From positions 44,465-108,464 of the forward strand of contig WYCW01000003.1 in assembly GCA_011392765.1 (NCBI GenBank): a DNA stretch of 64,000 nucleotides, read 5' to 3'. The notes beneath the pieces are model-generated. The model saw nothing but the letters and a program-made list of their open reading frames with translations, was not told the origin of the DNA and searched no databases. This stretch comes from Candidatus Thiosymbion ectosymbiont of Catanema sp. Cochon2018. Lineage in GTDB: Bacteria > Pseudomonadota > Gammaproteobacteria > Chromatiales > Chromatiaceae. Position numbers and translations under genes: made by a program. Position 1 is the first letter of the stretch, and every line of letters starts with the position of its first letter. Shown piece by piece: positions 872-61,673 of this stretch.

Positions 872-3800
872 ATGCATCCACCACCGAGCGATCAGACTTT
901 AGATCCGGGTCAGGACTCGCCACAGCTCTTCATCAGCTACAACTCCCGCGACCATGAACAGGTGGCAGTCGTGCGCAGGCAGCTGTCCGCACGCGGCATC
1001 TCCAGCTTTCTCGATCGTGAGCACCTGATCAAGGGTCTGCCCTGGCCCCAGGCGTTGGAGCGGGCCTTGACCCAGGCCGCGGCGGTGGCAGTCTTTCTGG
1101 GTCCCCATGGCCCCGGTGACTGGCAGTGGATTCCGCCCTGGAGCGTCAGGCCCAGGAGAAAGAGGTTGGCAGGCCTTTTCCTGTTATCCCCATACTGCTT
1201 CCCGAAGCCGATCTGACTGCCAACCCCTTGTTTCTCCATACCTGGGTCGATCTGCGTCGGGATCTTCGAGATCCCCAGGAACTCGCCGGCATAGTCCGCG
1301 CCATCGTCGGAGAAATCAGCCAGATTCGACCGGGCACCTCACACACCGACCCGTGTCCCTATCGCGGATTAGAAGTCTTCCGCGAGGAGGACACCGCCCT
1401 CTTCCGTGGCCGCGAGAAACCTACGGACAAGCTCATCGAGATCGTACACGGCCGTAATCTGGTTGTTGTGGTCGGCTCCTCGGGCAGTGGTAAATCCTCC
1501 CTGGTCCAGGCCGGTCTGTTACCCAGGTTGGACCAACAAAAACCGCCAGCCGAGACCTGGGACGCGGCCATCTTTACGCCGGGGGAGCGTCCCAACCAGC
1601 ACTTGGCCGCCGCCTTGCTGTCATTCATCGAACCCGACCTCAGCGAAGTCAACCAGGAGACTAAGGCCACCAAGCCCGATAAAGACCTGGCCGGGGGCGA
1701 TGTCTCTTTGGAGTTCGTGATCGAGTGGCTCTTGCAAAAGACCAAGGGCATTAACCGCCTGTTGCTGGTGGCCGACCAGTTCGAAGAGCTCTTCACTACC
1801 ACCCCGGCCAACCATCGAGGCCCCTTCATCGCCCGGCTGTTGGAGGTCATTGATCGTACCCGGCTTACGGTAGTGATCACCCTGCGGGCGGATTTCTACG
1901 GCCAGGCCCTGGATCTCAGCCGGGAATTCGCCGACCGGATCGAGCAGGGGATGGTCAATCTGGGCCCCATGACCCGAAAGGAGCTGACGCGGAGCATCCG
2001 CGAGCCTGCTGCCCAGGTCGGCGTGCGGTTCGAGCCGGGCCTGGTGGACAAGATCCTCGACGATGTGACCGACCAGCCCGGCAATCTGCCCCTGCTCGAA
2101 TTCGCTCTTACCGAGCTTTGGGAGCAGCGGCAAGACAATGTGATGACCCACATCGAGTATCGGGCCATCGGCGGCGTTACCGGATCGATCACCAAGCGCG
2201 CGGAGTCTGTGTACGGGAAGTTCTCGGACGAACAACAACAAGTAACTCGACGCCTCTTTACCCGGCTGGTGCAGGTAGCAAGTGCGGAAGAAGACAATCA
2301 GGACACCCGCCGCCGGGTCGCACTCGCGGAGCTGGAGCCGGCCACGAGGCCCATCGTGCTGGCGCTGGTCCGGGCTAGGTTCCTGATCATCAACGACGAT
2401 ACCCCGGCCATTACCGCCGAACCGGAAACGGATGACATTCCAACCGAGCAACAACCGGCGGCCACGGCCAGGCAGGGCACCACGGTCGAAATAGCCCATG
2501 AGGCATTGATCCGGGGTTGGGACCAGCTGCGTGGCTGGCTCAATCAGGACCGGGAATTCTTGCTTTGGCGCCAGCGGCTGGATCAGGCCCAGACCCGCTG
2601 GGACCAGATGCAGCAAGACCCAGGCTCCCTGCTGCGGGGCGCCGCCCTCACCGAGGCCGAAGGCTGGCTGCACCAGCGACCTCAGGAGATCAATGCCGAT
2701 GAACGGACATTCATCCAGGCAGGTCTCACCGAACGCACCCGAGAGCAGCAAACATAGGAACGGCGCCGCCGGAATCTGATTTGGGGCTTGGCGACCGGAC
2801 TTCTGATCGCGGTTGGGTTGGCCCTCTTCGCATTCTTCCAATGGGACCGGGCAGAGACCCACGCGGATAATGCACGCAAGGCACAATCACAGGCCGAAGA
2901 GCAGACCCGGTTGGTGCAAAGGGGCGCCTGTAATGTCCAGTTGGAACGGGTTCAGGATCTGTGGCGACAGTATCCGAATCAGGCCCTAGAACTGTTGAAG
3001 GACACCGACCGCTGCCCGGTGGAGTTGCGCGATTTTACCTGGCGCTTCTTTCGCCGGCTGTGCACGCCAGATTACGTTATCCTCCGAGGCCACACCAATT
3101 TGGTTATCTCCGTGGCGTTCGCTCCTGACGGACAGATCCTGGCCTCGGCGAGCCAGGACAAAACCGTTAGGCTATGGGATGTCGAGACCGGTAAGCTACG
3201 CGCTACCCTTCGGGGTCACACTGGTGGGGTTAGCTCCGTGGATTTCTCACCCGACGGACGGATACTGGCCTCGGTGAGCGAGGACAACACCATCAGGCTA
3301 TGGGATGTCGAGACCAGTCAGCTGCGCGCCACCCTCACGGGCTACGCTGGCACGGTTGCCTCCGGGACCTTCGCTACGGTTGCCTCGGTAGCGTTCGCTC
3401 CCGACGGCCATATCCTGGCCTCGGCGAGCAAGGACCAGACTGTTAGGCTCTGGGATACCGAGACCGGTCAGTTACACGCTACCTTCCAGGACCACGCTGG
3501 CGCGGTTGCTCCTATCGCCTTCACTATTGTTGCTCCTTTGGCTTTCGATCCCGAGGGGCACATCTTGGCCTCGACGAGCGGGAACGAGACCATCAAGCTG
3601 TGGGATGCCAAGACCGGCCAGCTACACGCCACCCTCCAGAGTCATTTGTCCGTTACCTCGATGGCCTTCGCTCCCGATGGACGGATCCTGGCCTCGGCTG
3701 GCCTGGATACAACCATCAAGCTGTGGGATGTCGAGACTGGCCAGATACGTACCACCTTCCAAGATGATAACTATAAGGCTCCCCTCTCCATAGCCTTTGA

Positions 3801-4914
3801 TCCCGATGGCCGAATCCTGGCCTCGGCGAACCTGGACAAGACCATCAAGCTGTGGGATGTCGAGACCAGCCAGATACGCGCCACCCTCCAGGATCAAACC
3901 AGCTTGGTTACCTCCGTAACCTTCGCTCCCGACGGTAATACTCTGGCTTCGGCGGGTGGGGATACTATCAAGCTGTGGGACCTCGGCAGTAGTCATCTGC
4001 GCGACCCTCTTCGAGACCAAGCCATCATGAAAGTAACCTCGGTGGCCTTCGCTCCTGATGATCGTATTTTGGCCTCGGCAAGTTTGGATGGGACCATCAA
4101 GTTGTGGGATGTCGAGACCGGCCAGCTGGGTGCTACCCTACGGGGCCACTCCGTCGGGGTTAGCTCCATGGTTTTCGCTCCCGATGGCCGTAGCCTGGTA
4201 TCGGCGGGCTGGGACGAGATCATCATGTGGGATGCCGAGACCGGCCAGATACGCGCCACCCTCCAAGACCACACCGATATGGTTGAGGCCGTGGCCTTTG
4301 CCCCTAACGGTCGCATTCTAGCCTCGGCGAGCCGGGACCAGACTATCAAGCTATGGGATCTCAAAACCGACCGGGTGCGCGCCACCCTCCAGGGTCATAC
4401 CGGGTGGGTTAACTCCGTAGCTTTCGCTCCTGACGGCCTTAGCCTGGCTTCGGCAGGCGGGGACAACACCATCAAGCTGTGGGATGTCGAAACCGGCCAG
4501 CTACGTGCTACCCTCAAGGGCCACACCGACAGTGTTGGGTCCGTGGCATTCGCTCCCGATGGCCGTAGCCTAGCCTCGACGAGTCAGGACAACACGATCA
4601 AGCTGTGGGATGTCGAGCGCGGCCAGTTACGAGCCACCCTTCGGGGCCATACCAATGGGGTTTTTTCTGTGGATTTCGCACCCGACGGCCGCACCCTGGC
4701 CTCGTCGAGCTCGGACAGTACTATCAAGTTGTGGGATCCCGAGACCGGCCAGCTACGCGCCACCCTCCAGGGTCATACCGGATGGGTTGTCTCCGTGGCC
4801 TTCAGTCCTGATGGCAGTACCCTGGCCTCAGCGAGTAGGGACGGTGCCATCAGGCTGTGGGAGGCTGAGGGAAGTAGGAATGATGAACCGAGAAAAGGGG
4901 CCAGGCTCAATTAA
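872..4914 (+). pseudogene. TIR - STAND NTPase (nSTAND1-like) - WD40 protein, disrupted by a frameshift (about 1119-1126) and an in-frame TAG (2755-2757)
   Basis: TIR (LFISYNSRDHEQVAVVRRQLSARGISSFLDREHL) in 872..1216; Walker A VVVVGSSGSGKSSLVQAGLLPRL in 1126..2757; 14 WD40 units in 2788..4914. ORFs 1126 and 2788 share one frame, separated by a single TAG. Confidence 0.85.
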
Positions 4915-47275: not shown

Positions 47276-47810
47276 TCACATGGTTTCGTTCACGAGCACG
47301 CTGTCCCCTCCCGATCTCCTGGAGCCGGTGGGCCACGGTAGGTCACACCCACTCCGTGTGGTTCGACACGGCTGCGGTTCGCACCGTGTCTGCGTCGGGC
47401 GTCGTTCTGGGCGAGCACGAGCCATGCCGCGACCACCTTCTATCCGTGCCGGCCCGTAGCCGGTCACCTCATCATGCATGCGCCCCTTGGCGCCGGTGAC
47501 ACCCGCTGTGAGCACGCCCCATCTACGAACTCGGTTCGGTTCTCGACCCGGTTGGGCAACGGGCGTGTTCAACCGCAGAAGGCGCCGGCACCAACCCGGC
47601 CAGACTTGCCAGTTGCCGGCGGTTGGCCAACTCCCGCCAACCAAACAGCTCCATCACCAGCGTCCCGGCACCGACCCAGCCCACCCCGGTCAGCAGCATC
47701 AGCGTGCGCATCGCCTGGGTGCGGTCAGCACTCTCGATCAGCGCCCTCATCTCCTACTTGATGACCCGCAGCTGCGCTGGCACCCCTTGCAAACGTTCCC
47801 ACTCCCGGAG
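47276..47810 (-). pseudogene. IS110-family transposase remnant
   Basis: MRTLMLLTGVGWVGAGTLVMELFGWRELANRRQLASLAGLVPAPS; frame upstream (LREWERLQGVPAQLRVIK) closed by in-frame TAG. Confidence 0.7.
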
Positions 47811-48890
47811 TGTCGGGTCCCGGATGATTACGCGGGCTTTTTTTAAACAGCTGGGGCTGCTGTGCGTACCATTGTTGGAGTGTCTGAAGGGGCGTTTTGT
47901 GGTGCAAGTTTTTCTGCGGGATGTGTTGATTATACAGGTAGACGAAGCGTTTGAGAGTGGTCTGGAGGGAGGCAGAGGAATCGAAGCGGTGGGTGCGCAG
48001 GACATCGGCGATGCGGCCGTTGAAGCGTTCGATCATGCCATTGGTTTGAGGGCTGCGGGGCTTGGTGAGGCGATGTTGGATGCGGTGGTCGGCACAAACC
48101 TGATCGAAGGCATGGGCGCCGGTGGGCGAGCGCTCGCCAGTGGCGCAGAAGCGGTCGGTAAATTCCTTGCCGTTGTCGGTGAGGACGGTGTTAATCGTGA
48201 AGGGAGCGTGGTCGATCAAGCGTTTGAAGAAGCCGCTCGCGGCGGTTGCTGACTTGTCCTTGAGGATCTCCACGTAGACCCAGCGGGTGGCCCGATCAAT
48301 GGCTGCAAACAGATACGTGCGTTGGTCTTCGTCCGGCATCTGAGGCAGGTACTTCACGTCCACGTGGACAAAGCCGGGGGCGTAGTCTTTGAAGCGTTTG
48401 TGTGGGGGTTTCTGTGCCCCTTCCTCCTGCGGCAGCAGGGTCTTGAGGTTGGCGACCCCATGGCGCCGCAGGCAACGGTCCAGAGCGGACCGGGAGAGCG
48501 CGGGGTGGATGAACTCGTGGGTTACCACCAGCAGGTCATCGAGCGGCAGCAGCAACGTCTTACGCAGCTCCACGACCACGAGTTCCTGGGCCGGGGTGAG
48601 GGTGGTCTGCAAGCGATGGGGCGTATGGGAACCGTCGGCAACCCCGTCACGGCCCTTCCAGCGGCGGATGGTATCCTCACTCACGCCCAGCTCATCGGCC
48701 AGTTGCGGGACGGACTGGTTGGAGGCCTGAATGTACTGGCGGGTCTTGGGGGTCGTGGTCGCATTGGCGTGCAAGTGGATGTTCATGGTGCGTTCTCCGC
48801 TATCGACAGGGCTACAAGCCGCTCCATAACCTCTCGGGCACGCAACAATGAACCAATTTTAGATCCTATGCAATCATCCGGGACCCAACA
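47811..48890 (-). mobile_element. IS481-family insertion sequence (transposase ORF 47725..48786)
   Basis: DDE integrase core (VHVDVKYLPQ; LTDNGKEF; PQTNGMIERFNGRI); ends TGTCGGGTCCCGGATGATTAC / TGTTGGGTCCCGGATGATTGC. Confidence 0.8.
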
Positions 48891-50359: not shown

Positions 50360-51898
50360 TCAATCCTGGGTCATGAGGGCGATGTGGGCGTCCCGGATCT
50401 CCACGTCCCTACCCCCGATGGGGACCAGAGTCAAATGCAGGTTATGCCCCATGTCGATGAATTGCTTGGCCTGATGGGTAATGTCCAGGATCACATTGTC
50501 CATATCCGTGGTGAAGCGCTTGCTCACTGTGCCCAAATAGGTGGGAATATCCTCGGCCGTGGCTTCCTTGGCATCCGGCTCGTCCAGATAGAGCTTGAAA
50601 TCCAGCCGTCCACGCCGGCCATCACTGGTCTTGATGCCCAGCAGGCGCAGGAAGGCCCTGATCAATCGCTTCTCCTTGTAGGGAGCATTGCCCTGAAGGT
50701 GACCCTGGAATACATCCCCATCCTGTTCCAGAGTAAGGGGACCGTCCTCGTCCCGAAGTACCACGGGCCAACCGTTGTCGGTGTCCGCCTCCGCGGGCCG
50801 GAAATGGACGTTGTAGATGCTGGCCCGCTGCTCGCCGCGCAGGTCGAGCTGCATCATATCCGCTACGTCACGAGCACTTTTGAGCCCCTTGCCCAAGACC
50901 GTGCCCATCTTGGTCAGGGCGGCCTCCGGGGTCATATCCAGACCGCCGATGACTCCGGCGGTGAGCAGCCCGGCACTGACCTCGTACAGGCCCTGCTCCA
51001 CCTCCCCCTGCATACACTGGGTGACATTGACCATGAGCAACCCTTTCTCCCGCACCCCGTATTCGATGGCGTCGAGGAACTCCTTGGTGGTCGGCGCGTT
51101 GCCGGTGCCGAAGGTCTTGAGGACGATACCCTTGAGATCGGGTGTATCGAAGAGGGTACGCAGGACCTCCGGCTTCATACCGGGAAAGATGTCCAGGGAC
51201 ATGATGTCCATATCCAGTTCCATGGCGACATTGAGCCTGGTCGGTTTCTCGGGGGGGCGGCGGACGACGGCACTGTTGACCTCGATGTGCTCACCGGCCT
51301 GGCCGAGGTGCAACAGGTTGGGGGAACTGAAACCCTCGTAGCCGCTGGCGCTCACCTTACGCAACCGGCAACCCCGGAAGAGCTGGTTGTGGAACAGGAC
51401 GCTCACCTCCGGGACTATCGGGTGGCCCAGGGTGCGGGCAACGGCGAACTCGATGGCGGTGACCACATTCTGCACTGCGTCCGATCGCGTCTCACCGATG
51501 GGGAGCTGGGAACCGGTGACGATCACCGGCTTGGCCAGGTCCTCCAGCATGAAGGCCAGGCAGGAGCTGGTATAGGCCATGGTGTCCGTGCCATGCAGGA
51601 TGACAAAGCCCTCATAGTCATCATAGTGCTCCTTGATCAGGCGGGCCATCTCCTGCCAGTCCTTGGCCTCGATATTGGACGAGTCGATGGGTTCATCGAG
51701 AGAGATGGCCTCGACCCGGACCAGCTTGCCCTTCAAGGCGATCTTCTTGTCCCTCGGCAGATAGCCGGGCAGGGATTCCAGGATCTGGTCCATGCTGCCC
51801 GGCACCAGGGGACTCAGGGGGTCCTTCGGGTCCTCATGGACCGAGCCGATGGTGCCCCCCGTGTAGATGATCAATACCCCATCTGCATACGCAGACAT
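50360..51898 (-). CDS. Asparaginase-family protein with about 150-aa C-terminal extension
   Basis: LIIYTGGTIGSVHED; VILHGTDTMAYTSS; KPVIVTGSQLPIGETRSDA; GIVLKTFGTGNAP. Confidence 0.9.
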   Translation of the reverse strand: MSAYADGVLIIYTGGTIGSVHEDPKDPLSPLVPGSMDQILESLPGYLPRDKKIALKGKLVRVEAISLDEPIDSSNIEAKDWQEMARLIKEHYDDYEGFVILHGTDTMAYTSSCLAFMLEDLAKPVIVTGSQLPIGETRSDAVQNVVTAIEFAVARTLGHPIVPEVSVLFHNQLFRGCRLRKVSASGYEGFSSPNLLHLGQAGEHIEVNSAVVRRPPEKPTRLNVAMELDMDIMSLDIFPGMKPEVLRTLFDTPDLKGIVLKTFGTGNAPTTKEFLDAIEYGVREKGLLMVNVTQCMQGEVEQGLYEVSAGLLTAGVIGGLDMTPEAALTKMGTVLGKGLKSARDVADMMQLDLRGEQRASIYNVHFRPAEADTDNGWPVVLRDEDGPLTLEQDGDVFQGHLQGNAPYKEKRLIRAFLRLLGIKTSDGRRGRLDFKLYLDEPDAKEATAEDIPTYLGTVSKRFTTDMDNVILDITHQAKQFIDMGHNLHLTLVPIGGRDVEIRDAHIALMTQD

Positions 51899-52761
51899 TA
51901 GGTAACCTCTCCGACAGAGCTGATCTTGAATCTACAACCCAGGTTGGGTTTTCCAGGAGTGTGTAGGTCACATGCGATGTGGCTGACGTTAATCTCCCGA
52001 TTATGGCGGTTGGTAATTCGGTTCAAGACACCCTCGACGTAACCTCCCATGAAATCGCAGAGGCTTTCGTCTTCTACGGACCGATCTTCCGTCAGAAACG
52101 AGTGGAGGAGGTGGATCTCTCCTGAAAAATCGATTCCATCCACTAATACCTTATTCGAAAATACACCGAACCCTGCATTCTTATCGTATTCGCACCAAAT
52201 ATCGAGTTGTCGATCCAACTCCAGGTCTGTTGTTGGGTACTCCGCTTTAAGGTATCGCCGAAACGACATCCCGAAGGCCCAATCCACATGATAGCCGACA
52301 TCTTTAAGAAACTCGGGTGATTTTTCTTTTATCATGGAAAACACGGACTGCATCGTATCGCTGCTCATGAGAAGGCAGCGCTTATCTTCGTACTTCAAAT
52401 GTCCGGTCGCGTCGTTGAATTCAGAGACCATGAAAGAGTGTTTTCCTATTGTCATGAATCCACGAGCAATGTTTTCTCGTGAGGCATCGAGGTCGGCCTT
52501 CAGCTCCTCGATTTGCTGCCGGATGAGCTTATTTTCCCGGTACATGCCTGCAACCCATGTCGCCAATAGCAGGGTGATGATCGAAATAACGTTGAATAAG
52601 GAAAAATACCCCAGCGTTTGGATGCCCCACAAATGAGGGAACAGTTTTACATAGCTTGCGGCAATCCCGAAGAACGCGTTCATCAGGAATAAGAATGCAG
52701 ACCAAATTTTAAAACTCATCTTGAAGCTGGACTCAACATTCCGCCCTATCTTATCCATCAT
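51898..52761 (-). CDS. Two-TM protein with V4R-like C-terminal domain
   Basis: N-terminal TM pair and coiled coil, then IWCEYDKNAGFGVF...LCDFMGGYVEGVLNRITNRHNREINVSHIACDL...GCRFKI; TAATG overlap with downstream asparaginase. Confidence 0.6.
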   Translation of the reverse strand: MMDKIGRNVESSFKMSFKIWSAFLFLMNAFFGIAASYVKLFPHLWGIQTLGYFSLFNVISIITLLLATWVAGMYRENKLIRQQIEELKADLDASRENIARGFMTIGKHSFMVSEFNDATGHLKYEDKRCLLMSSDTMQSVFSMIKEKSPEFLKDVGYHVDWAFGMSFRRYLKAEYPTTDLELDRQLDIWCEYDKNAGFGVFSNKVLVDGIDFSGEIHLLHSFLTEDRSVEDESLCDFMGGYVEGVLNRITNRHNREINVSHIACDLHTPGKPNLGCRFKISSVGEVT

Positions 52762-52898
52762 ATATTGACCTCGCTTGAATCACTCATATCATTCAATATA
52801 AATTAGTGTGATTCAAATCAACAACTGTGGACTGAAAGTAAAGAGACTGAAAGTTAGCATAGGGTCCGTTGCGCGGACCTTCTAAATGTCAACACGCC

Positions 52899-53114
52899 CT
52901 AGTACCTCGTTTCGCTTGATATTGCAGAAATACTCTATTCACCACAGAGACACAGAGGGCACAGAGAATACACCGAGGAATGTTTCTTCAGACCTGACGA
53001 GCATGGAGAAAGCACGAAGGAAATTCTCTGATTTCTCCGTGCTCTCTGTGCCTTTGTGGTGAATAAAAAATTTTCCCCGTGTCTTCCGCAATATCAAACG
53101 AAATGAGGTACTAG
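52899..53114. repeat. MITE-like element with 27-bp TIRs
   Basis: CTAGTACCTCGTTTCGCTTGATATTGC ... GCAATATCAAACGAAATGAGGTACTAG. Confidence 0.85.
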
Positions 53115-53145
53115 TCCAGGAGTACCCTCAGCCATTCCGCGGGTG

Positions 53146-54240
53146 TCAATTTCCCCTTGGCGCTTCGGTGGGTGTCATCTCCTCGACGTAGAGCCTGCCC
53201 ATTTTCTCTCTGACACGTGTCAGCTTGTCCGCGGGCGACAGGCGGCCTTGGTCAATGGCCGTCTGCACCTGGTGCAGGACCCAGCGGAACTTGGCGGTGG
53301 CCGCCGCGTTGGTCATATTGCCGGTGGGGATGGCCCCAGCCTCCAGGGCCTCCTGGCCGGGGGCATAGTGGGAGGCGAGGGTGGAGTTGGCAGGGAACTG
53401 GCTGGTGATGATCACCGGCTTGTCGAGATTTACGGCTTCCTGGATGAAGCCCTTGAAGGAATAAATCCCCCCGTTGGGCACATTGCCGGCACCGAAGGAT
53501 TGGAGGACCACGCCTTTGCAGAGCTCGCTATGCAGCACCGGACGCAAGGCATCGGGCTCCAGGCCGGGAATCAGTGAGAACTGGACCACCCCGTCCGAGA
53601 ACTCGGGCCGAAAGTCCAGTGGCTCCGGTTGACTGGGGCGCGTCCGTATCTGTCCGGCCGCCAGCAGTATCTCCTCGGTGATAAAGCCGATGGGAAACTC
53701 CGCCGGGGACTCGAAGGCATCGAAGCACCGCTCGTCCTTCTTCTGCACCCGACAGCCGCGAAAGACGTATTCGCCGAAGGCGACCACCACCTCCGCCAGG
53801 TCCTCGCAGGCGACCCTGATCGCCCGCAGCAGATTGACCCGGGCATCCCCATGGGCAATCTCGGGGGTGGTCTGGGCACCGGTAAAGACAACAGGCAGAT
53901 GCAACCGATCGCCGAGGGCAAAGGCCAGGGCGGACGATGAAAAATGCATGGTGTCCGTGCCGTGGGCGATGACAAAGCCTTGGTATCCCCGGTCCAAACG
54001 CTCATAGATGGCCTGGGCCATTTTTGTCCAATCCGCGGGCACCATATTGGTGCTGTCCTTGTTCAGCAGATCCACGAAATCCAGCTCGGCGGTCTCCTGG
54101 ATCTCGTCCTCCGCCTTGAGATAACGCAGAAACTCGCTCGGATCTTCCGGGGGGCGCAGGACATATTCCTGGCCCTTGCGCTCCCGGATCATGCCGATAG
54201 TGCCCCCGGTGTAGATGAGGCAGATTTTGGGTTTGCTCAT
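53146..54240 (-). CDS. Asparaginase-family protein
   Basis: ICLIYTGGTIGMIRERKGQ; FVIAHGTDTMHFSSSALAF; LPVVFTGAQTTP; GVVLQSFGAGNVPN; start at ATG 54240. Confidence 0.9.
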   Translation of the reverse strand: MSKPKICLIYTGGTIGMIRERKGQEYVLRPPEDPSEFLRYLKAEDEIQETAELDFVDLLNKDSTNMVPADWTKMAQAIYERLDRGYQGFVIAHGTDTMHFSSSALAFALGDRLHLPVVFTGAQTTPEIAHGDARVNLLRAIRVACEDLAEVVVAFGEYVFRGCRVQKKDERCFDAFESPAEFPIGFITEEILLAAGQIRTRPSQPEPLDFRPEFSDGVVQFSLIPGLEPDALRPVLHSELCKGVVLQSFGAGNVPNGGIYSFKGFIQEAVNLDKPVIITSQFPANSTLASHYAPGQEALEAGAIPTGNMTNAAATAKFRWVLHQVQTAIDQGRLSPADKLTRVREKMGRLYVEEMTPTEAPRGN

Positions 54241-55847
54241 GATCGACTCAGATGATCGGTACAATACGAATAATAGGTTGCCCTTGCGTCCGAAACCAGG
54301 CGTTTCGCCTGCGAAGTACGCACGGATTCCGGCAGGTCATCCCCTTCCATTTCATTGACCTGGATTCTCCCTGCAGGTCCGTCGCCGAATTATAGATTCC
54401 ACTCAGGACCCCCTCTACATAACCTATGAAGAAACCCTTGAGATCTCTGCGTTGGTCGGACGGAAATCCGTCCTTGGCAAAGGGGTCGCCTACGACCCTC
54501 AAATAACCACGCGGCGAGCCGGATTGAACTGGTACTGCATGAATCGTACCGAATCCGGCGCCCGAGTCGAATTCAGCCCACGAATGGACTCGCGAGATAA
54601 CATCCTGTAGCTCGGACGCGGTATCGAAGATTTCATTCAGCTCGTCCGCAAAATCCTCACCACCTCGCCTTCCTGCATCCCTGAGTGCCTCGTACTGGCT
54701 ATCGGAGTCCCTAGCAATACGTTGCAGCAGCGCGTCGAGCATGAGATGGAAGGTTTCGACACGCATGGCGATATTCGGGCGGTCATCATCCACATTCCGC
54801 ATGGCTCCGAGATGAATATGGCGTTCAAACCGCTTGGTCAGGATGCGGACCTGGGGATCCATACCCCGTTTCTCATACCACCATTTTTCACTTTCCCCTA
54901 GGTCGGATACCGCCAGCGGTGGAGCCAAACGCGCACAAAGCGCGAGGTAATCGTGGCTGAGCTTCAGACTGGAGTCGCGATTATGGCTATTTACGTACAA
55001 AATACGCTCCTTCAATTCGATCTCTTCCGTTTCGGAAAGTATCACGAAATTATCCGGCCTGAACATCGATTCGGCAAGGGCCTGATTATCCAGGTCATTT
55101 GAGAAATCCGCCCAACGTTCAGCAACATCCTGTCGCGTTTTTTCTGCCTCTTTCTGTGTCATATGATCGGGGGCACGTGTGATCACCGGAACAAAGGAGC
55201 TCTTTCCCTTCCATTTCATGGATGATGAGCGCAGCAACGCCTGTGCTGTAGAGAGTGCGTGATAAATGCCTTCCTCATTCGGTGGAAAAAATGCGCAATA
55301 GTATCGGCCCAGTCAAGCAATAGGAATGCGCTGGATCCAGTGCTCGTCTTGCAGTCCACCAACAAAAAATCCGGCGTGAATTGTGTCTCGATCAGTTTTT
55401 GGTCTTCCCGGAAGGCTCGGATATTCAGGTCCAGCCACTCCATCGAGAAGGTGCCGGGGTTGAGTCCGATGATCTCGGATCTTGCCTGATAGAACAGCCG
55501 GTGGAACTGATAGGATGAGATGAACTCCCAATAGGCCCCCGGGTCTCGTCCCCGGCCCGCAGCAGGTAGAGGTTTTTGCCGACCCGTTTGATGTTCCGGC
55601 CCAGCTCATGCCAGCGGTCCGCCGCGGATTTCCCGCCTGCGCGATCTTCGATGCTGAAGTGTTCCAGATACTCCAGATATCCGCAGCCGGATGGCTTGTT
55701 CCATTTATGGTGGAGTCCCGGCGCTAGATAATCGAAATCGAGCATCAATACCTTTCGGCCAGTCTCGGCCAGGGCCTTTGCCACATTGCACAGGGCCAGG
55801 GTACGCCCCACGCCGCCCTTGACCGAATGGAATACCAGTGTCTTCAT
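54237..55847 (-). pseudogene. KGGVGR-motif ParA-like ATPase fused to V4R-like domain, three apparent frameshifts
   Basis: MKTLVFHSVKGGVGRTLALCNVAKALAETGRKVLMLDFDYLAPGLHHKW...; continues in other frames (YWEFISSYQFHRLFYQARSEI...; PPNEEGIYHALSTAQALLRS...; AGRIQVNEMEGDDLPESVRTSQAKRLVSDARATYYSYC), aligned to intact paralogue 59009-60655. Confidence 0.8.
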
Positions 55848-56026
55848 GGGTGTCTGGCCGGTTGCAGGCGAATCGTCTTGTGCTCGTAAGAGGCATCCTC
55901 CCGCTGACCCTTACGCTCTTGCTTATGACCCATAGCCGCAGCCCTTTCGACGGCCCAGATGAGGACAGCAAATAGAGGGACGATGAATAGCGTGGAAATC
56001 GCAGCGCTGATCAGGAATTCTTTCAT
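55844..56026 (-). CDS. 60-aa single-TM protein
   Basis: MKEFLISAAISTLFIVPLFAVLIWAVERAAAMGHKQERK...; ATGA overlaps with both neighbours. Confidence 0.65.
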   Translation of the reverse strand: MKEFLISAAISTLFIVPLFAVLIWAVERAAAMGHKQERKGQREDASYEHKTIRLQPARHP

Positions 56027-56292
56027 GTCGATATCCTCACGAATTCGTTATGGGTGGATTCACCGATTTTTTCTTGCTGTTTGGAGAGGTAGCCTCGTAT
56101 CCAGACAGCAAAGATCGATGCGCCAAGTGCAAGGGGATAACCAAAACCGAAGAGATGGTTTTTCTGCACGGCTGAAAGGAAATCACCCACATCCAGCGCG
56201 TAGGGGAGCGCATAGAGAAGCGCCGCTATCAGACCAGACAGCAGGCAGATCGCGCTGACAAGGCGACAGTTTGCCATTATGCTCCTTTTCAC
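56023..56292 (-). CDS. Small multi-TM protein, equivalent to the C-terminal half of the 282-aa protein at 60825-61673
   Basis: LVSAICLLSGLIAALLYALPYALDVG versus HAVSALCLLIGLFAALLYALPYIADM. Confidence 0.7.
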   Translation of the reverse strand: MKRSIMANCRLVSAICLLSGLIAALLYALPYALDVGDFLSAVQKNHLFGFGYPLALGASIFAVWIRGYLSKQQEKIGESTHNEFVRIST

Positions 56293-56313
56293 CGGGCTGT
56301 CAGCGCAGATTTC

Positions 56314-56760
56314 CTACCTGAAATCCTCGATCTCGGTTTGCAACAGGATAAAAATCGTCGCCACTACAACCATGAGGCTATAATAAGTAGGAAAAAAGTA
56401 CACGGTGAAACTATTCTGTGATTCCCCCGTTTCTTTAGCGAAAAAGATAGCGGCGAATATGGGGGGAAGTAATATAAAGGCTATCGGTAAGATATAATTT
56501 AAAATTGTCCAGTGGGCAACCGTAATCCATTTCCTAACCCAGAGAATCGAAATTCCGAATAAAAAAGATGACAAGGTCAGTCCCAAGATAGCTAACGATC
56601 TTACCCGTAATCCCCATCCCATGAGCCATGATGTGACTGTAAATGCCACCGCAGCCAGAAAGAAAATTCCGATAGAAAGCGGCAGCCACTTATAGAATGG
56701 TCTCTTTCCATGCATATGCGGGTACTCGGACATCCTTTGTTTCTCCTCAAAGTCTGACAC
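56314..56760 (-). CDS. Multi-TM protein, equivalent to the N-terminal half of the 282-aa protein at 60825-61673
   Basis: YFFPTYYSLMVVVATIFILLQTEIEDF versus YVFYPTYYSLLVVVSTIFFNLQTEVEEW. Confidence 0.7.
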   Translation of the reverse strand: MSDFEEKQRMSEYPHMHGKRPFYKWLPLSIGIFFLAAVAFTVTSWLMGWGLRVRSLAILGLTLSSFLFGISILWVRKWITVAHWTILNYILPIAFILLPPIFAAIFFAKETGESQNSFTVYFFPTYYSLMVVVATIFILLQTEIEDFR

Positions 56761-57029
56761 TCAAAACAAAGCCGTGTTGTGTCCGCTTGTAAACCGACAA
56801 TGTAAGCGCGACCTCAGGCTCCTTTTCAGGGATCTTGCTGCCAAAGACCTGCCCCCATACCGGCCGACAGTCCGGCTCCGCCCCAACAGGACAACCTCCC
56901 AAGTCGTTGGGTTCCGAAACGGCGGGATGTATCTCACCCCATGGCTGATACCGCAGGCTTGGGCCGGAAAGGATAATCCCGCGGGCTAATCTCTGTCACC
57001 TCGAATGGGGTTTTCCCTTTGGCAAGCAA

Positions 57030-57644
57030 CTAGCTGACTACGCCCGTCAGGTACCCAACGAGAAACTGTCGAATGCTCGCATTCACCGGATTGTCGCTAG
57101 TCGCGAGAAAGCCATTCTCGATAATGACCTGGCCGCGGAGCGTCTTCGAATCGACCTGGGCCTTGATATTGCCGAAGCCCGCGGCCGAGTCGAACTCGCA
57201 CCACCCGTCGAGTCTGGCCTGGAGGTCTTCCGGCGGACCCGCGGACCAGATCGAGTCCGTTTCCATCATCTCGCGCCCGAAGCTTTCGCCCGCGGCGAAC
57301 CCGCAGCGCCATAAGCCTTGTGCCGCTGTCCGGGAATGCTCCGGGGAATCGCCGGACGCCGCAGCAACCAAGTCGGCATGGATCTGTTCCAACATCCGCT
57401 GCAGACTCTCGGTGCGCAGGGCGATATTCCGTTGGCGATCGACGTTGATCAAGTCGCTTCCATGCCGGCGAAAGCGTCTCTCGGTCTCCCGGATGTCTTC
57501 CGGCATACCGAGCAGTGATTTCCAGGACCGTCCGGCAAGAGTGTACCGGACGCCTGGGTCATCGCCGAGAATGACCTCGAACAGGGCCAGATAGTCATGG
57601 GCCAGCGGTACGTCCAAATCGCCCTGGTCCCCTTCTACCGCCAA
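57030..57644 (-). CDS. Stand-alone V4R-like domain protein (start uncertain)
   Basis: LAHDYLALFEVILGDD...NIALRTESLQRML...WCEFDSAAGFGNI...FLVGYLTGVVS; homologous to C-terminal half of the ATPase fusion. Confidence 0.6.
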   Translation of the reverse strand: MAVEGDQGDLDVPLAHDYLALFEVILGDDPGVRYTLAGRSWKSLLGMPEDIRETERRFRRHGSDLINVDRQRNIALRTESLQRMLEQIHADLVAAASGDSPEHSRTAAQGLWRCGFAAGESFGREMMETDSIWSAGPPEDLQARLDGWCEFDSAAGFGNIKAQVDSKTLRGQVIIENGFLATSDNPVNASIRQFLVGYLTGVVS

Positions 57645-58453
57645 AACCAGGCGCTCCTGATACCTGAGCTTTCGTTGCTACCGCCGTTTCGCTGCAATGC
57701 GGCTGCAATCGCTCCTGCGGCATCCGGGTTTTTTGTCAATCCCACCAGCCTTTGAGTGAGCCGAGGCGTGGCCGGTACGCGCCGCATCAAGGCGGCGATT
57801 TCCATCGTCGCCCTCCGGCCCGTGGCGGAGTCCGACCAGTCGAGGACCGAGAGCAGACTCAGGGCGGCGGCAGGATCCGTAGTGGCCAAGCCACGGAAAC
57901 AGGGTGCGAAATACGCGGGTGGGTTCGGCTCCATGAGCTGCCGCCAATGAGTCTCACCCAATCGGCAATTCGCGTCGTCCCGCCCTTGGAGCACGGACAG
58001 AGCAGCCAAGGCCTGGAAGTAAGGATCCCGTGTGCGCTTGGTAGCGGATAGCCCGACTCTATTGGGTGCCAACCGCCGGGCGATTGCCAACACATCGGAG
58101 GCACAGTGTCCTACCCCGAGGTCTCGGATCAGAAAGAAGAGTCCGCTCAGGGCCTCTCCAGTCCAATCCTTTCCTGTGGCCGAGTGGTGTAGTGCGGCGC
58201 AAATGCCGAGTTTGGCGGTTTTCCGGGCAATGCCCAGCTGCGGGATCAGGTCGAGGAAGAGGTATTCCGGGCCATCGCCCTGCCGGGGATCGGGCCTGGG
58301 AAACGGGTCGCGCCGGTGCAATCGATCATGGACCCATGCCGCCCAACGCGGTGTGGTGAGCCGCTGTAGGCTGTCCAGGTCGAAACGACCGTCCACGTAT
58401 CCAATGTGGTCGGCATAGTCTTCCCCCTCTTCTGCTCTTTTGTTCACTACCAT
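57635..58453 (-). CDS. Unknown protein (272 aa), helical-repeat-like
   Basis: ATG at 58453 overlaps the end of the upstream gene; co-directional in cluster. Confidence 0.6.
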   Translation of the reverse strand: MVVNKRAEEGEDYADHIGYVDGRFDLDSLQRLTTPRWAAWVHDRLHRRDPFPRPDPRQGDGPEYLFLDLIPQLGIARKTAKLGICAALHHSATGKDWTGEALSGLFFLIRDLGVGHCASDVLAIARRLAPNRVGLSATKRTRDPYFQALAALSVLQGRDDANCRLGETHWRQLMEPNPPAYFAPCFRGLATTDPAAALSLLSVLDWSDSATGRRATMEIAALMRRVPATPRLTQRLVGLTKNPDAAGAIAAALQRNGGSNESSGIRSAWFWR

Positions 58454-59012
58454 AGGTGCCATACCTCGAATAGATCGCCGATCCGGATCGATTCGTGGAT
58501 CGCCTCCAGGTGCTGTCGGTATCCCGGCCCCAGGTTGCCCACATGTGGAAGGCACCCAACCGATCCTCGTGCCGGATGAGGGTCCAGCTCCAACCGGTGG
58601 GTGGTTCGGGCAAGTTCAGGGTTGAAATCAGTTCTTGGATGGCCTCGGGGGGCCAGTAGCACTCCTTATCCAGGTGCCGAGTGAGACTTTGTGGACGAAC
58701 GGCGCGCCAGAGCATCCTGTTCCGAGGGATGTGCCCACATTCGCTGCCCTGCAAGAGGTAATTCAGGCAGGCCGCGTCGTAGGCGGCCTTCAGACTCGGC
58801 CAATCGGCGGGTGTATTCGGATATTCGGCAATGGTTCTCAAAAGTTCGGCACGAGCGGAAAGGCCAAGTCTAATGTCGGCACACAGGTTATCGATAATCT
58901 TTTTCACGCTGCCGTGGGACCGGCGCCATTGCTCCAGCACCCGTCCGACGCGGTTGGCTTCAGCCGCCGTGAAGCGACCGTGGTCGGCCAGGATCTCGTT
59001 ACACGGTATCAT
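58447..59012 (-). CDS. Unknown protein with a probable frameshift near 58535
   Basis: ATGA overlap with the ATPase stop; after the shift the frame continues PGYRQHLEAIHESIRIGDLFEVWHLW* and ends overlapping the next ATG. Confidence 0.5.
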
Positions 59013-60655
59013 CGGGGGTGGTCCGCTGCCACTCGGGCAGGATGGTCAACAGGCGTTCCTGTGTTGGCCGCCGAGACGCGATAATAATTGATCGCGTCCG
59101 ACCGTATGCTGCTACGAAGCTCCGGGGGCAACTTGTCCTCCGCGATGGTCCGGACCTTCAACTCATGATAATCACCCGCGGCCACTGCCTTAAAAATGTC
59201 TCCGATGACGCCTTCCAGATAGCCTTCGAAGAAGCTGCGCAGGTCGTGGCCCTGATCGTCGGGAAACCAGTCCGGGTGCAATCCGAAGGCGTCGCCGATG
59301 ACCCGCAACCACATTTCCCCGGAGGTTTCGTCGATCTCCAGGGGATGGATCACGCCGATACCGACCCCCGAGTCGAACTCGGCCCAACGCTTGATCCGCT
59401 TGGAAAACGACACCTCGACCCCTTCCTGCCTGAAAATGTCGTTGAGCTCAGCGGCAAAGTCCCGACCACAGCGCTGGCCGACTTTGACCAGAGTGGTCCG
59501 TTGGGCGTCCGGCCCGCCGGATTGACAAGCATCCAGAAGCCCTTCGAGCAACAGGTGGAAGGTTTTGACCCGCATGGCGATGTGGGGCTGCTCGTCGACG
59601 TTGAGCAGGGTCCCCAGATGGAGGTAGCGGTCGAATTGCTTGGCCAGGATGCGTTCCCCCCGGTCCATGCCGAGCTGCTCGTACCACCAAGTCTCCGCGG
59701 CGGCCGGGTCCTGCGTGTACCCTTCGGGCGGCACCAACCGGGCGCACAGGCCGAGATAGTCGTGGCTCAGTTGCCAGAAGATGTCTTTCTTATCCCGCAT
59801 CTCGAACAGGATGCGTTCCTGGCCTTCGAGCTCCCTGGTCTCGGAGAGGATGACGAAATCCCGTTCCCGAAACAGCCCGGCGGCATAGCCCTGCTCTCCG
59901 TCGGACCAGTGCCTGCGGCGCCAGGTATCCCCGATCGTCCGGATACAGTCCGCATCCCCGGTCTCGCTGCGATGATCCGGCACACGGGCGATAACAGGCA
60001 CGAAGCCGATGGGGCACCGTTGGCGCGCCATCTCCCGCACGACGGCTTGCGCGGTGCCGCAGGCGTAGTAGATACCTTCGGGATTCGCCGGCAGAAAATG
60101 GGCGATGGAATCCGCCCAGGAAAGCAAGATGACCGCGCTCGGCTCGGTCGTGGTCTTGCAGTCCACGAGCAGATAGTCCGGTGCGAAGCGCTCCGCGATC
60201 AGTTGCTTGTCCATGTCGAAGGCCTCCCGGTTGCGATCCAGCCATTCCAGTGGAAAGACTTTGGGACTGAGGCCATTGATCTCCTTGGGGGCGAAGTAGA
60301 AGAGACGCTGAAAACGGTAGGAGGCGATCAGGCGCCAATAATCGGGGCTGGTCTCGTCCCCCGCCCGCAGTAGGTAGAGGTGTTCGTCGATGGGCTCGAT
60401 CCGGTCCTGGAGCAGGCCCCAACGTTTGCGCGCCGAGACGCCGCCGGCGCGGGCCTCGACGTCGAAGGCGTCCAGATACTCCAGGTAGCCGGGCCCGGGC
60501 GGCCGCTGCCACTTGTAGTGGAGTCCCGGCGCGGTGAAATCGAAATCCAGCATCAGGACCCGCTTGCCGGCCACTGCCAGGGCCCGGGCCAGATTGCACA
60601 GGGCCAGACTGCGCCCGACGCCGCCCTTGACGGAGTGAAAGACCAGTGTCTTCAC
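59009..60655 (-). CDS. KGGVGR-motif ParA-like ATPase fused to V4R-like C-terminal domain (548 aa, intact)
   Basis: VFHSVKGGVGRSLALCNLARALAVAGKRVLMLDFDFTAPGLHYKW; YLLVDCKTTTEPSAVILLSWADSI; RWAEFDSGVGIGVI...FFEGYLEGVIGDI; GTG start. Confidence 0.85.
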   Translation of the reverse strand: MKTLVFHSVKGGVGRSLALCNLARALAVAGKRVLMLDFDFTAPGLHYKWQRPPGPGYLEYLDAFDVEARAGGVSARKRWGLLQDRIEPIDEHLYLLRAGDETSPDYWRLIASYRFQRLFYFAPKEINGLSPKVFPLEWLDRNREAFDMDKQLIAERFAPDYLLVDCKTTTEPSAVILLSWADSIAHFLPANPEGIYYACGTAQAVVREMARQRCPIGFVPVIARVPDHRSETGDADCIRTIGDTWRRRHWSDGEQGYAAGLFRERDFVILSETRELEGQERILFEMRDKKDIFWQLSHDYLGLCARLVPPEGYTQDPAAAETWWYEQLGMDRGERILAKQFDRYLHLGTLLNVDEQPHIAMRVKTFHLLLEGLLDACQSGGPDAQRTTLVKVGQRCGRDFAAELNDIFRQEGVEVSFSKRIKRWAEFDSGVGIGVIHPLEIDETSGEMWLRVIGDAFGLHPDWFPDDQGHDLRSFFEGYLEGVIGDIFKAVAAGDYHELKVRTIAEDKLPPELRSSIRSDAINYYRVSAANTGTPVDHPARVAADHPR

Positions 60656-60835
60656 TCAAATACGATCGGTAGGCAGGAACCAAGTGTCTTTCCGGCCCGG
60701 AAGGTCGGTCGGGTCCGGCGGCCGTGCCGGTCGTGGCGGCCGCGGCGAAAAGGGCGTGCTCCAGGCCAGGGCCCCCAAGAGAGGCAGTCCGAGGATCAGG
60801 CTCACGCTGATCCCCACGATAAGGTCAATAGGCAT
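60656..60835 (-). CDS. 59-aa single-TM protein (not in ORF track)
   Basis: MPIDLIVGISVSLILGLPLLGALAWSTPFSPRPPRPARPPDPTDLPGRKDTWFLPTDRI*; same position as the 60-aa TM protein of the other module. Confidence 0.6.
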   Translation of the reverse strand: MPIDLIVGISVSLILGLPLLGALAWSTPFSPRPPRPARPPDPTDLPGRKDTWFLPTDRI

Positions 60836-61673
60836 AGATGGTCTCTTTCGTCGGCTTGGTCTTCGCCATCACTTTGGTCTGGGCCTCTTCCAGCTTCATG
60901 CGGATCAGGATGGCGATCAAGGGCAGAAACAGGGCAGACGCCAGGGCGATGTAAAACAGGGCGGCGCGTTGGCTCGGGTCCTTGATGCCTTCCTGCATGT
61001 CCGCGATATAGGGTAAGGCGTAGAGCAGTGCGGCAAACAGACCGATGAGCAGGCAGAGGGCGCTGACGGCGTGCCAGCGGTTTGCTTCCCGGTCGCCTTT
61101 CTCGAGGGTCTTCATCCATTCTTCGACCTCCGTCTGCAGGTTGAAGAAGATGGTACTCACTACGACGAGCAGACTGTAATAGGTGGGGTAGAACACGTAC
61201 GAAACAAGAATGGTACTGCGGTTACCAGCGTCCCGCGTCGGGTCCGTCTCCGAGTCCGCTGTCGGCCCCCCGACCTCCCGCGCGTCCGCCCCGCTCGTTA
61301 TCTCCTGGCAGGGGCCGGCCTGCTCAGGGAGGGTGACATTGAGCAGCAATCCGCCGGCAACCGGGGGCAACAACACGAAGATCAGGGGGAATTGGTGATT
61401 GAGCAGGGTCCAGTGGATGCTCGCATAGCGACGCCTTGCCCATAGCAGCCAGAGCCCCATGATGGTGACAAAGAAGGTGATGGTGAGGATCCAGGCGATG
61501 ATTGCCTTGTTGTAATATCCGGTTGCCCACAGCCAGTAACTGACTCCACCCAAGAAGAGGGCCGAGGAAACGGCTATCAGCAGCAGCGGGCCGCCCATCC
61601 GCCCGCCGGCGGATAAATCGTCACTCGCTTTCTCCCCGGAACGCGGGGTTTGAACTCTTCTCGTGCGCGTCAT
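60825..61673 (-). CDS. Multi-TM protein (282 aa) of the ATPase/V4R-like cluster
   Basis: Several hydrophobic segments; homologous to 56314-56760 plus 56023-56292. Confidence 0.75.
   Translation of the reverse strand: MTRTRRVQTPRSGEKASDDLSAGGRMGGPLLLIAVSSALFLGGVSYWLWATGYYNKAIIAWILTITFFVTIMGLWLLWARRRYASIHWTLLNHQFPLIFVLLPPVAGGLLLNVTLPEQAGPCQEITSGADAREVGGPTADSETDPTRDAGNRSTILVSYVFYPTYYSLLVVVSTIFFNLQTEVEEWMKTLEKGDREANRWHAVSALCLLIGLFAALLYALPYIADMQEGIKDPSQRAALFYIALASALFLPLIAILIRMKLEEAQTKVMAKTKPTKETIYAY

Follow-up and report, generated by a model that had tools for sequence, protein, structure and literature searches.

A V4R-type KGGVGR ATPase with membrane partners forms an apparently undescribed accessory gene cassette in Candidatus Thiosymbion

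In the present study, a minus-strand gene run at 50360-61673 of a 64-kb window (the whole 64,000-nucleotide stretch that was analyzed, located on contig C10 of the ~5.0-Mb genome G000 of a Candidatus Thiosymbion ectosymbiont of Catanema sp.) was found to carry a three-gene core, TM282-TM59-ATPase-V4R, in which a multi-transmembrane (TM) protein and a small single-TM protein precede a ParA/MinD-like ATPase fused to a C-terminal V4R/Bet3-type domain. The domain combination is real and apparently undescribed, and represents a variant of the known KGGVGR class of MinD/ParA-like ATPases, while the cassette appears to be new and restricted to the genus Thiosymbion. Literature searches yielded no description for “KGGVGR”, nor for “V4R domain” together with “asparaginase”, and the preliminary description of this run, in which the combination was not recognized, agrees with our finding of no published account of a KGGVGR ATPase-V4R membrane combination. 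We tentatively regard the cassette, with a probability that we place a little short of even, as an accessory three-gene core in which a V4R-gated nucleotide switch acts on a TM partner and to which exchangeable downstream genes are attached.

The core occurs in an identical order in three species, namely, in the window, in Candidatus Thiosymbion oneisti (G002:C811), and in G003, a third species of the genus. The ATPases of T. oneisti and G003 are 85 and 71% identical to the window copy, respectively, their TM282 orthologs are 73 and 48% identical, and the counterparts of TM59 have 58 and 59 amino acids (aa). The ATPase showed a ratio of nonsynonymous to synonymous substitution rates (dN/dS) of 0.25-0.30 and TM282 one of 0.38-0.47, and the core TM282-TM59-ATPase is under purifying selection. 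Since the core of T. oneisti is located elsewhere in the genome, adjoining an Fe-S oxidoreductase-like gene, and the slot beside MocA holds other genes in all three relatives (G001, G002, and G003), the core is regarded as accessory; the ATPase is absent from G001, which belongs to the same genus. Searches of 212 genomes from the order, 399 from the phylum, and viral contigs revealed no V4R-type relative beyond Thiosymbion. Phages contained no relative of the module and plasmids contained the ATPase half only, while a search of assembled genome contigs returned T. oneisti as the only full-length relative, plus one match confined to the P-loop. A query with all parts of the module gave matches in Thiosymbion only, among 56 relatives. 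Within the run itself, the partial duplication proposed earlier is borne out by module 2, which repeats the core order with paralogs (the TM protein at approximately 33-35% identity to TM282, the ATPase at 45-67% in pieces); the module 1 core is intact, and the module 2 copy is decaying.

The ParA/MinD-like domain of ATPase-V4R 1 carries at its N-terminus the KGGVGR P-loop (MKTLVFHSVKGGVGRSLALCN), in which the P-loop lysine is replaced by arginine; the T. oneisti and G003 proteins show it as KGG(V/L)GR. Pfam and NCBIfam scans recovered the ParA-like P-loop in the ATPase, as well as the two asparaginases of the run. The protein resembles members of NF047398 (KGGVGR-motif variant AAA ATPase) in its ParA/MinD-like N-terminal domain, identical P-loop change, swapped C-terminus, and occurrence in accessory loci; however, it scores under the family cut-off, and its V4R-type C-terminus and TM partners were absent from the members inspected. 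A broad scan with NF047398 mostly returned ordinary ParA/MinD proteins, and members above the cut-off were inspected for their neighbors. Across the class, these ATPases mostly adjoined a small HEPN-like gene and a P-loop-type gene of ~480 aa, with both terms being a reading of the sequences (Pfam matched nothing in one such pair), and neither a V4R nor an asparaginase gene was found beside any of them. Relatives of the KGGVGR ATPase on plasmids and chromosomes carry swapped C-termini of the TIR, TPR, and ORC-CDC6-like types. On a Sinorhizobium plasmid (L103:5992-8196), a KGGVGR-type ParA domain is fused to TIR and has other TIR genes in its vicinity; this locus is a candidate conflict system. 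The Catanema ectosymbiont also possesses a separate KGGVGR ATPase (G000:C13, L025:5672-7437), flanked by a HEPN-like gene of ~135 aa upstream and a P-loop-type gene of 533 aa downstream, which is the common class-wide arrangement, as well as two giant KGGVGR ATPases of approximately 1700 and 1050 aa (L024:7051-12201 and L026:3389-6550).

Predicted-inactive MinD/ParA-like domains have been described as parts of nucleoside triphosphate-dependent conflict systems (Kaur et al., 2020, PMC7159879), with which the cassette shares a degenerate MinD/ParA-like domain joined to variable partners. However, Pfam and NCBIfam gave no match to MoxR, vWA, AP-ATPase, VMAP, or effector-associated domains in the 10 main proteins, and neither V4R nor asparaginase is included in the main text of PMC7159879. 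Dyads of HEPN and ParA/Soj-like ATPases have been reported as putative toxin-antitoxin units (Anantharaman et al., 2013, PMC3710099), and the cassette is similar to these in that a ParA-like ATPase is paired with another gene, forming an accessory unit that resembles a toxin-antitoxin system. The C13 unit of the genome has a HEPN-like neighbor, whereas no HEPN gene was recognized in the window cassette.

Regarding the C-terminal domain, the Pfam V4R hidden Markov model matched nothing in the genome, including the cassette proteins; therefore, the V4R assignment was examined by fold. In the structural model of 59009-60655, the C-terminal segment was of moderate confidence and the model as a whole was poor. 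Residues 381-530 of ATPase-V4R 1 were the best part, with ten-residue blocks averaging 62-89 in the predicted local distance difference test (pLDDT), except for 451-470 (49-56), and the modeled order was helix-helix-helix-strand-strand-helix-strand-strand. The top 50 Foldseek matches to the PDB were almost exclusively TRAPP-Bet3 subunits and PoxR/MopR/DmpR sensory domains, with probabilities of about 1.0; the domain did not turn out to be an unrelated housekeeping fold, the outcome envisaged in the preliminary description as contradicting its proposal. The V4R/Bet3 motifs M1 and M2 are glycine pairs three residues apart on helices alpha2 and alpha5 (Podar et al., PMC2253512). In an alignment of seven V4R-like sequences, both GxxxG motifs were found in the C-terminus of ATPase 1, as GQRCG in the second V4R helix and GYLEG in the last helix; these pairs are retained in most homologs, but the second M1 glycine is missing from TM-V4R and the first M2 glycine from G003. 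Based on the Foldseek matches and both GxxxG motifs, we assign the C-terminus of the ATPase, with moderate confidence, to a divergent V4R/Bet3 domain, which supports the fusion proposed earlier. The domain shares its fold, secondary-structure order, and paired GxxxG motifs with V4R proteins (PF02830; DmpR/PoxR/MopR and TRAPP-Bet3), but differs from them in being unmatched by the Pfam model, and from DmpR/PoxR/MopR-type sensors in being fused to an ATPase class other than sigma-54 activators.

V4R/Bet3 domains dimerize. In the mechanism that we tentatively favor, the V4R domain of the ATPase would bind a hydrophobic or small ligand and dimerize, with the V4R proteins that stand alone or are anchored by TM segments as possible partners, and this would shift the ATPase to another nucleotide or dimer state. 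Since arginine replaces the P-loop lysine, the ATPase may serve as a nucleotide-binding switch rather than a motor, and this switch would act on the TM282/TM59 membrane partner as an effector or anchor. The downstream slot may be exchangeable, with 4a-4b-V4R behind one copy of the core and an asparaginase behind the other; in this lineage, the asparaginases came to be linked with V4R genes and may provide outputs, although they are not obligate. A purpose in conflict or defense may be inferred for the cassette. Several points weigh against the proposed mechanism: no ligand is known for the V4R domain of the cassette; the whole-protein model of ATPase-V4R 1 was poor (mean pLDDT 48.7); the Foldseek E-values were modest, ranging from 6e-4 (best) to 4e-2; the NF047398 scores of ATPase 1 (85.3 bits) and the ATPase 2 fragment (78.3 bits) are below the curated cut-off of 90; the contigs of T. 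oneisti and G003 stop just after the ATPase, leaving the downstream genes out of view; PADLOC profiles matched the P-loop stretch of PDC-M28B only, with no whole-gene match; and no defense gene of a known type was recognized adjoining the cassette.

A fuller version of this mechanism, in which the fusion of V4R and a ParA/MinD-like ATPase, lacking the P-loop lysine, is a new kind of ligand-gated switch at the membrane that controls a multi-TM effector together with a lineage-specific asparaginase output in phage conflict or dialogue with the animal host, is considered unlikely. The MinD/ParA-like fold, together with the cuboid or longitudinally dividing Thiosymbion species described in PMC8760462 and PMC7999549, may also point to positioning of the MinD type, connected with the unusual division or polarity of these ectosymbionts; however, the P-loop lysine is replaced, V4R occupies the C-terminus in place of a membrane-targeting helix, and the gene is accessory in location and absent from G001, such that we consider this explanation to be highly improbable.

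The integrity of the run also needs to be considered. The preliminary description listed a second ATPase-V4R fusion as a gene; however, ATPase 2 is not open, and all-frame reading placed three apparent frameshifts near 55540, 55285, and 54350, two of which sit in homopolymer-like runs (CCCGGGGG and TTTTTT). The module 2 TM gene, previously noted as split in two, indeed comprises two open reading frames (ORFs), with the split being an in-frame TAG, and another in-frame TAG interrupts the stand-alone V4R gene. With gene 4a, the interrupted genes number four; thus, the genes of a run initially counted as at least 12 are present, but four are damaged and the guanine-plus-cytosine (GC) content is mixed. 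The reassignment of the stop codon was set aside for both TAG codons because other genes of the run terminate in TAG. GC contents are low in TM2a (43%), TM-V4R (47%), and the C-terminal part of ATPase 2 (53%), and high in both asparaginases (61-62%) and module 1 (60-66%, with its larger genes at 60-63%); this contrast indicates a mosaic run, not one uniform operon.

The location of two frameshifts of ATPase 2 in homopolymer-like runs is consistent with assembly errors, in which case all 12 genes would be intact in the organism, and this is compatible with the other explanations. It is nevertheless rather unlikely: the adjoining housekeeping genes MocA, rpmB, and ftsZ are open, and two of the lesions are in-frame TAG codons. 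A somewhat more credible, yet still doubtful, explanation is a decaying mosaic accessory island, in which the ATPase cassette is a relic, the gene order is accidental, and function resides only in two ordinary cytoplasmic asparaginases. The four interrupted genes, the mixed GC content, a truncated V4R fragment on contig C1, and the repeats and transposase-like gene nearby fit such decay, whereas three species retain unbroken copies of TM282, TM59, and ATPase 1, with dN/dS far less than 1, and the duplicated asparaginase has been under purifying selection since its duplication.

Both asparaginases of the run match PF00710 and PF17763, and the alignment showed that TGGTIG, HGTDT, and the catalytic lysine are intact. 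Both are probably functional enzymes, and they are 33% identical to each other. They resemble the type I cytoplasmic L-asparaginase AnsA over the catalytic core and in its motifs, but differ in that both adjoin V4R genes here and the 512-aa enzyme carries a C-terminal extension of ~150 aa, as was noticed at the outset. AlphaFold gave a pLDDT of 40 for this enzyme (four sequences), with only a hint of beta strands in the extension. A second copy of the 512-aa asparaginase is present on contig C1 (98% aa identity; 95.5% over 1.9 kb), and the dN/dS of 0.21 between the copies (11.5 nonsynonymous and 17.5 synonymous changes, p about 1e-4) shows that the pair stayed under purifying selection since duplication. 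This copy (G000:C1 ~1003109-1005093, L023:8110-10094) is preceded by a chimeric V4R fragment, the 5' part of which corresponds to ATPase 2 and the 3' end to TM-V4R; the two parts meet at the conserved GYVEGVL motif, in a joint produced by recombination or gene conversion. In T. oneisti, the ortholog of the 372-aa asparaginase (80% identity, dN/dS 0.28) and ATPase-V4R are on separate contigs with unrelated neighbors; the asparaginase (G002:C1413) adjoins a divergent LRR-Roco-type GTPase gene. The extended asparaginase of G003 (72%) stands alone, without a V4R neighbor.

The proposal of a ligand-gated ATPase controlling an amidohydrolase is plausible in its first half and weak in its second because the link between the asparaginase and the ATPase is without recurrence in related species: neither T. 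oneisti nor G003, whose contigs stop just behind the ATPase, shows the two genes side by side, nor does an asparaginase adjoin other KGGVGR ATPases. For the asparaginases, this is largely the outcome that the preliminary description named as contradicting its proposal. A functional link is possible because three Thiosymbion genomes carry the ATPase together with one of these asparaginases, both are missing from G001, and at three sites in the genome a V4R gene stands immediately ahead of an asparaginase, with two different asparaginases involved and ATGA or TAATG junctions. These observations and the intact catalytic motifs would fit a single system that regulates the asparaginase as its effector, through amide depletion or signal cleavage, in defense or stress. 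However, two of these three junctions stem from one duplicated segment, and GC contents differ sharply between TM-V4R/ATPase 2 and the asparaginases; together with the lack of adjacency, this makes the single-system explanation improbable.

ORF calling in the window recovered the run and its gene positions as previously listed (Table 1). Four of the many ATGA junctions claimed earlier were verified (ATPase1/4a, TM2b/TM60, TM60/ATPase2, and ATPase2/asparaginase), the last of which holds in the ancestral frame of ATPase 2 with the asparaginase starting at 54240. The two unknown proteins are present, properly at 59012-58447 and 58453-57635, although the first requires one frameshift; neither gene 4a nor 4b matched Pfam or NCBIfam, and both were absent from the other Thiosymbion genomes searched. 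PDB sequence searches with TM-V4R and gene 4b gave nothing significant. The stand-alone V4R-like protein is similar to the C-terminus of ATPase-V4R (29% identity, E 3e-13) and ends at the TAG before the last strands. Elsewhere in the window, an open transposase/integrase-like gene (47725-48786) lies downstream of the cassette, and a protein with a TIR-like N-terminus followed by a large gene (872-4914), close to the beginning of the window, may represent a distinct TIR-based system.

Table 1. Genes of the minus-strand run, in order of transcription (window coordinates)
Feature	Position	Strand	Description
TM282	60825..61673	-	Multi-TM, 5 strong TM segments; first core gene; ORF and hydropathy
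TM59	60656..60835	-	Small single-TM protein; 11-bp overlap with TM282; ORF and hydropathy
ATPase-V4R 1	59009..60655	-	548 aa; ParA/MinD-like, KGGVGR P-loop and C-terminal divergent V4R/Bet3-fold domain
Gene 4a	58447..59012	-	ATGA overlap with ATPase 1 at start; one apparent frameshift near 58530
Gene 4b	57635..58453	-	Overlaps 4a stop; helix-rich as judged by eye
Stand-alone V4R-like protein	57030..57644	-	Shortened by in-frame TAG ahead of last strands
Module 2 TM gene	56023..56760	-	ORFs 56760-56314 and 56292-56023 split by in-frame TAG
TM60	55844..56026	-	Small single-TM protein, counterpart of TM59; ORF and hydropathy
ATPase-V4R 2	54240..55847	-	Three apparent frameshifts; broken as assembled
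Asparaginase, 372-aa ORF	53146..54240	-	ORF from 54264; likely start 54240; stop 53146; PF00710/PF17763
TM-V4R	51898..52761	-	Two TM segments and V4R-like domain
Type I asparaginase, 512 aa	50360..51898	-	C-terminal extension of ~150 aa

The KGGVGR ATPase class recurs in accessory loci, and no description of its biochemical role was found. The TRAPP/V4R-fold sensor represents an addition to the domains joined to KGGVGR ParA/MinD-like ATPases. Taken together, the intact copy, the decaying copy, and the two orthologs provide a small and tractable system for asking whether a P-loop ATPase lacking its usual lysine is a ligand-gated membrane switch.

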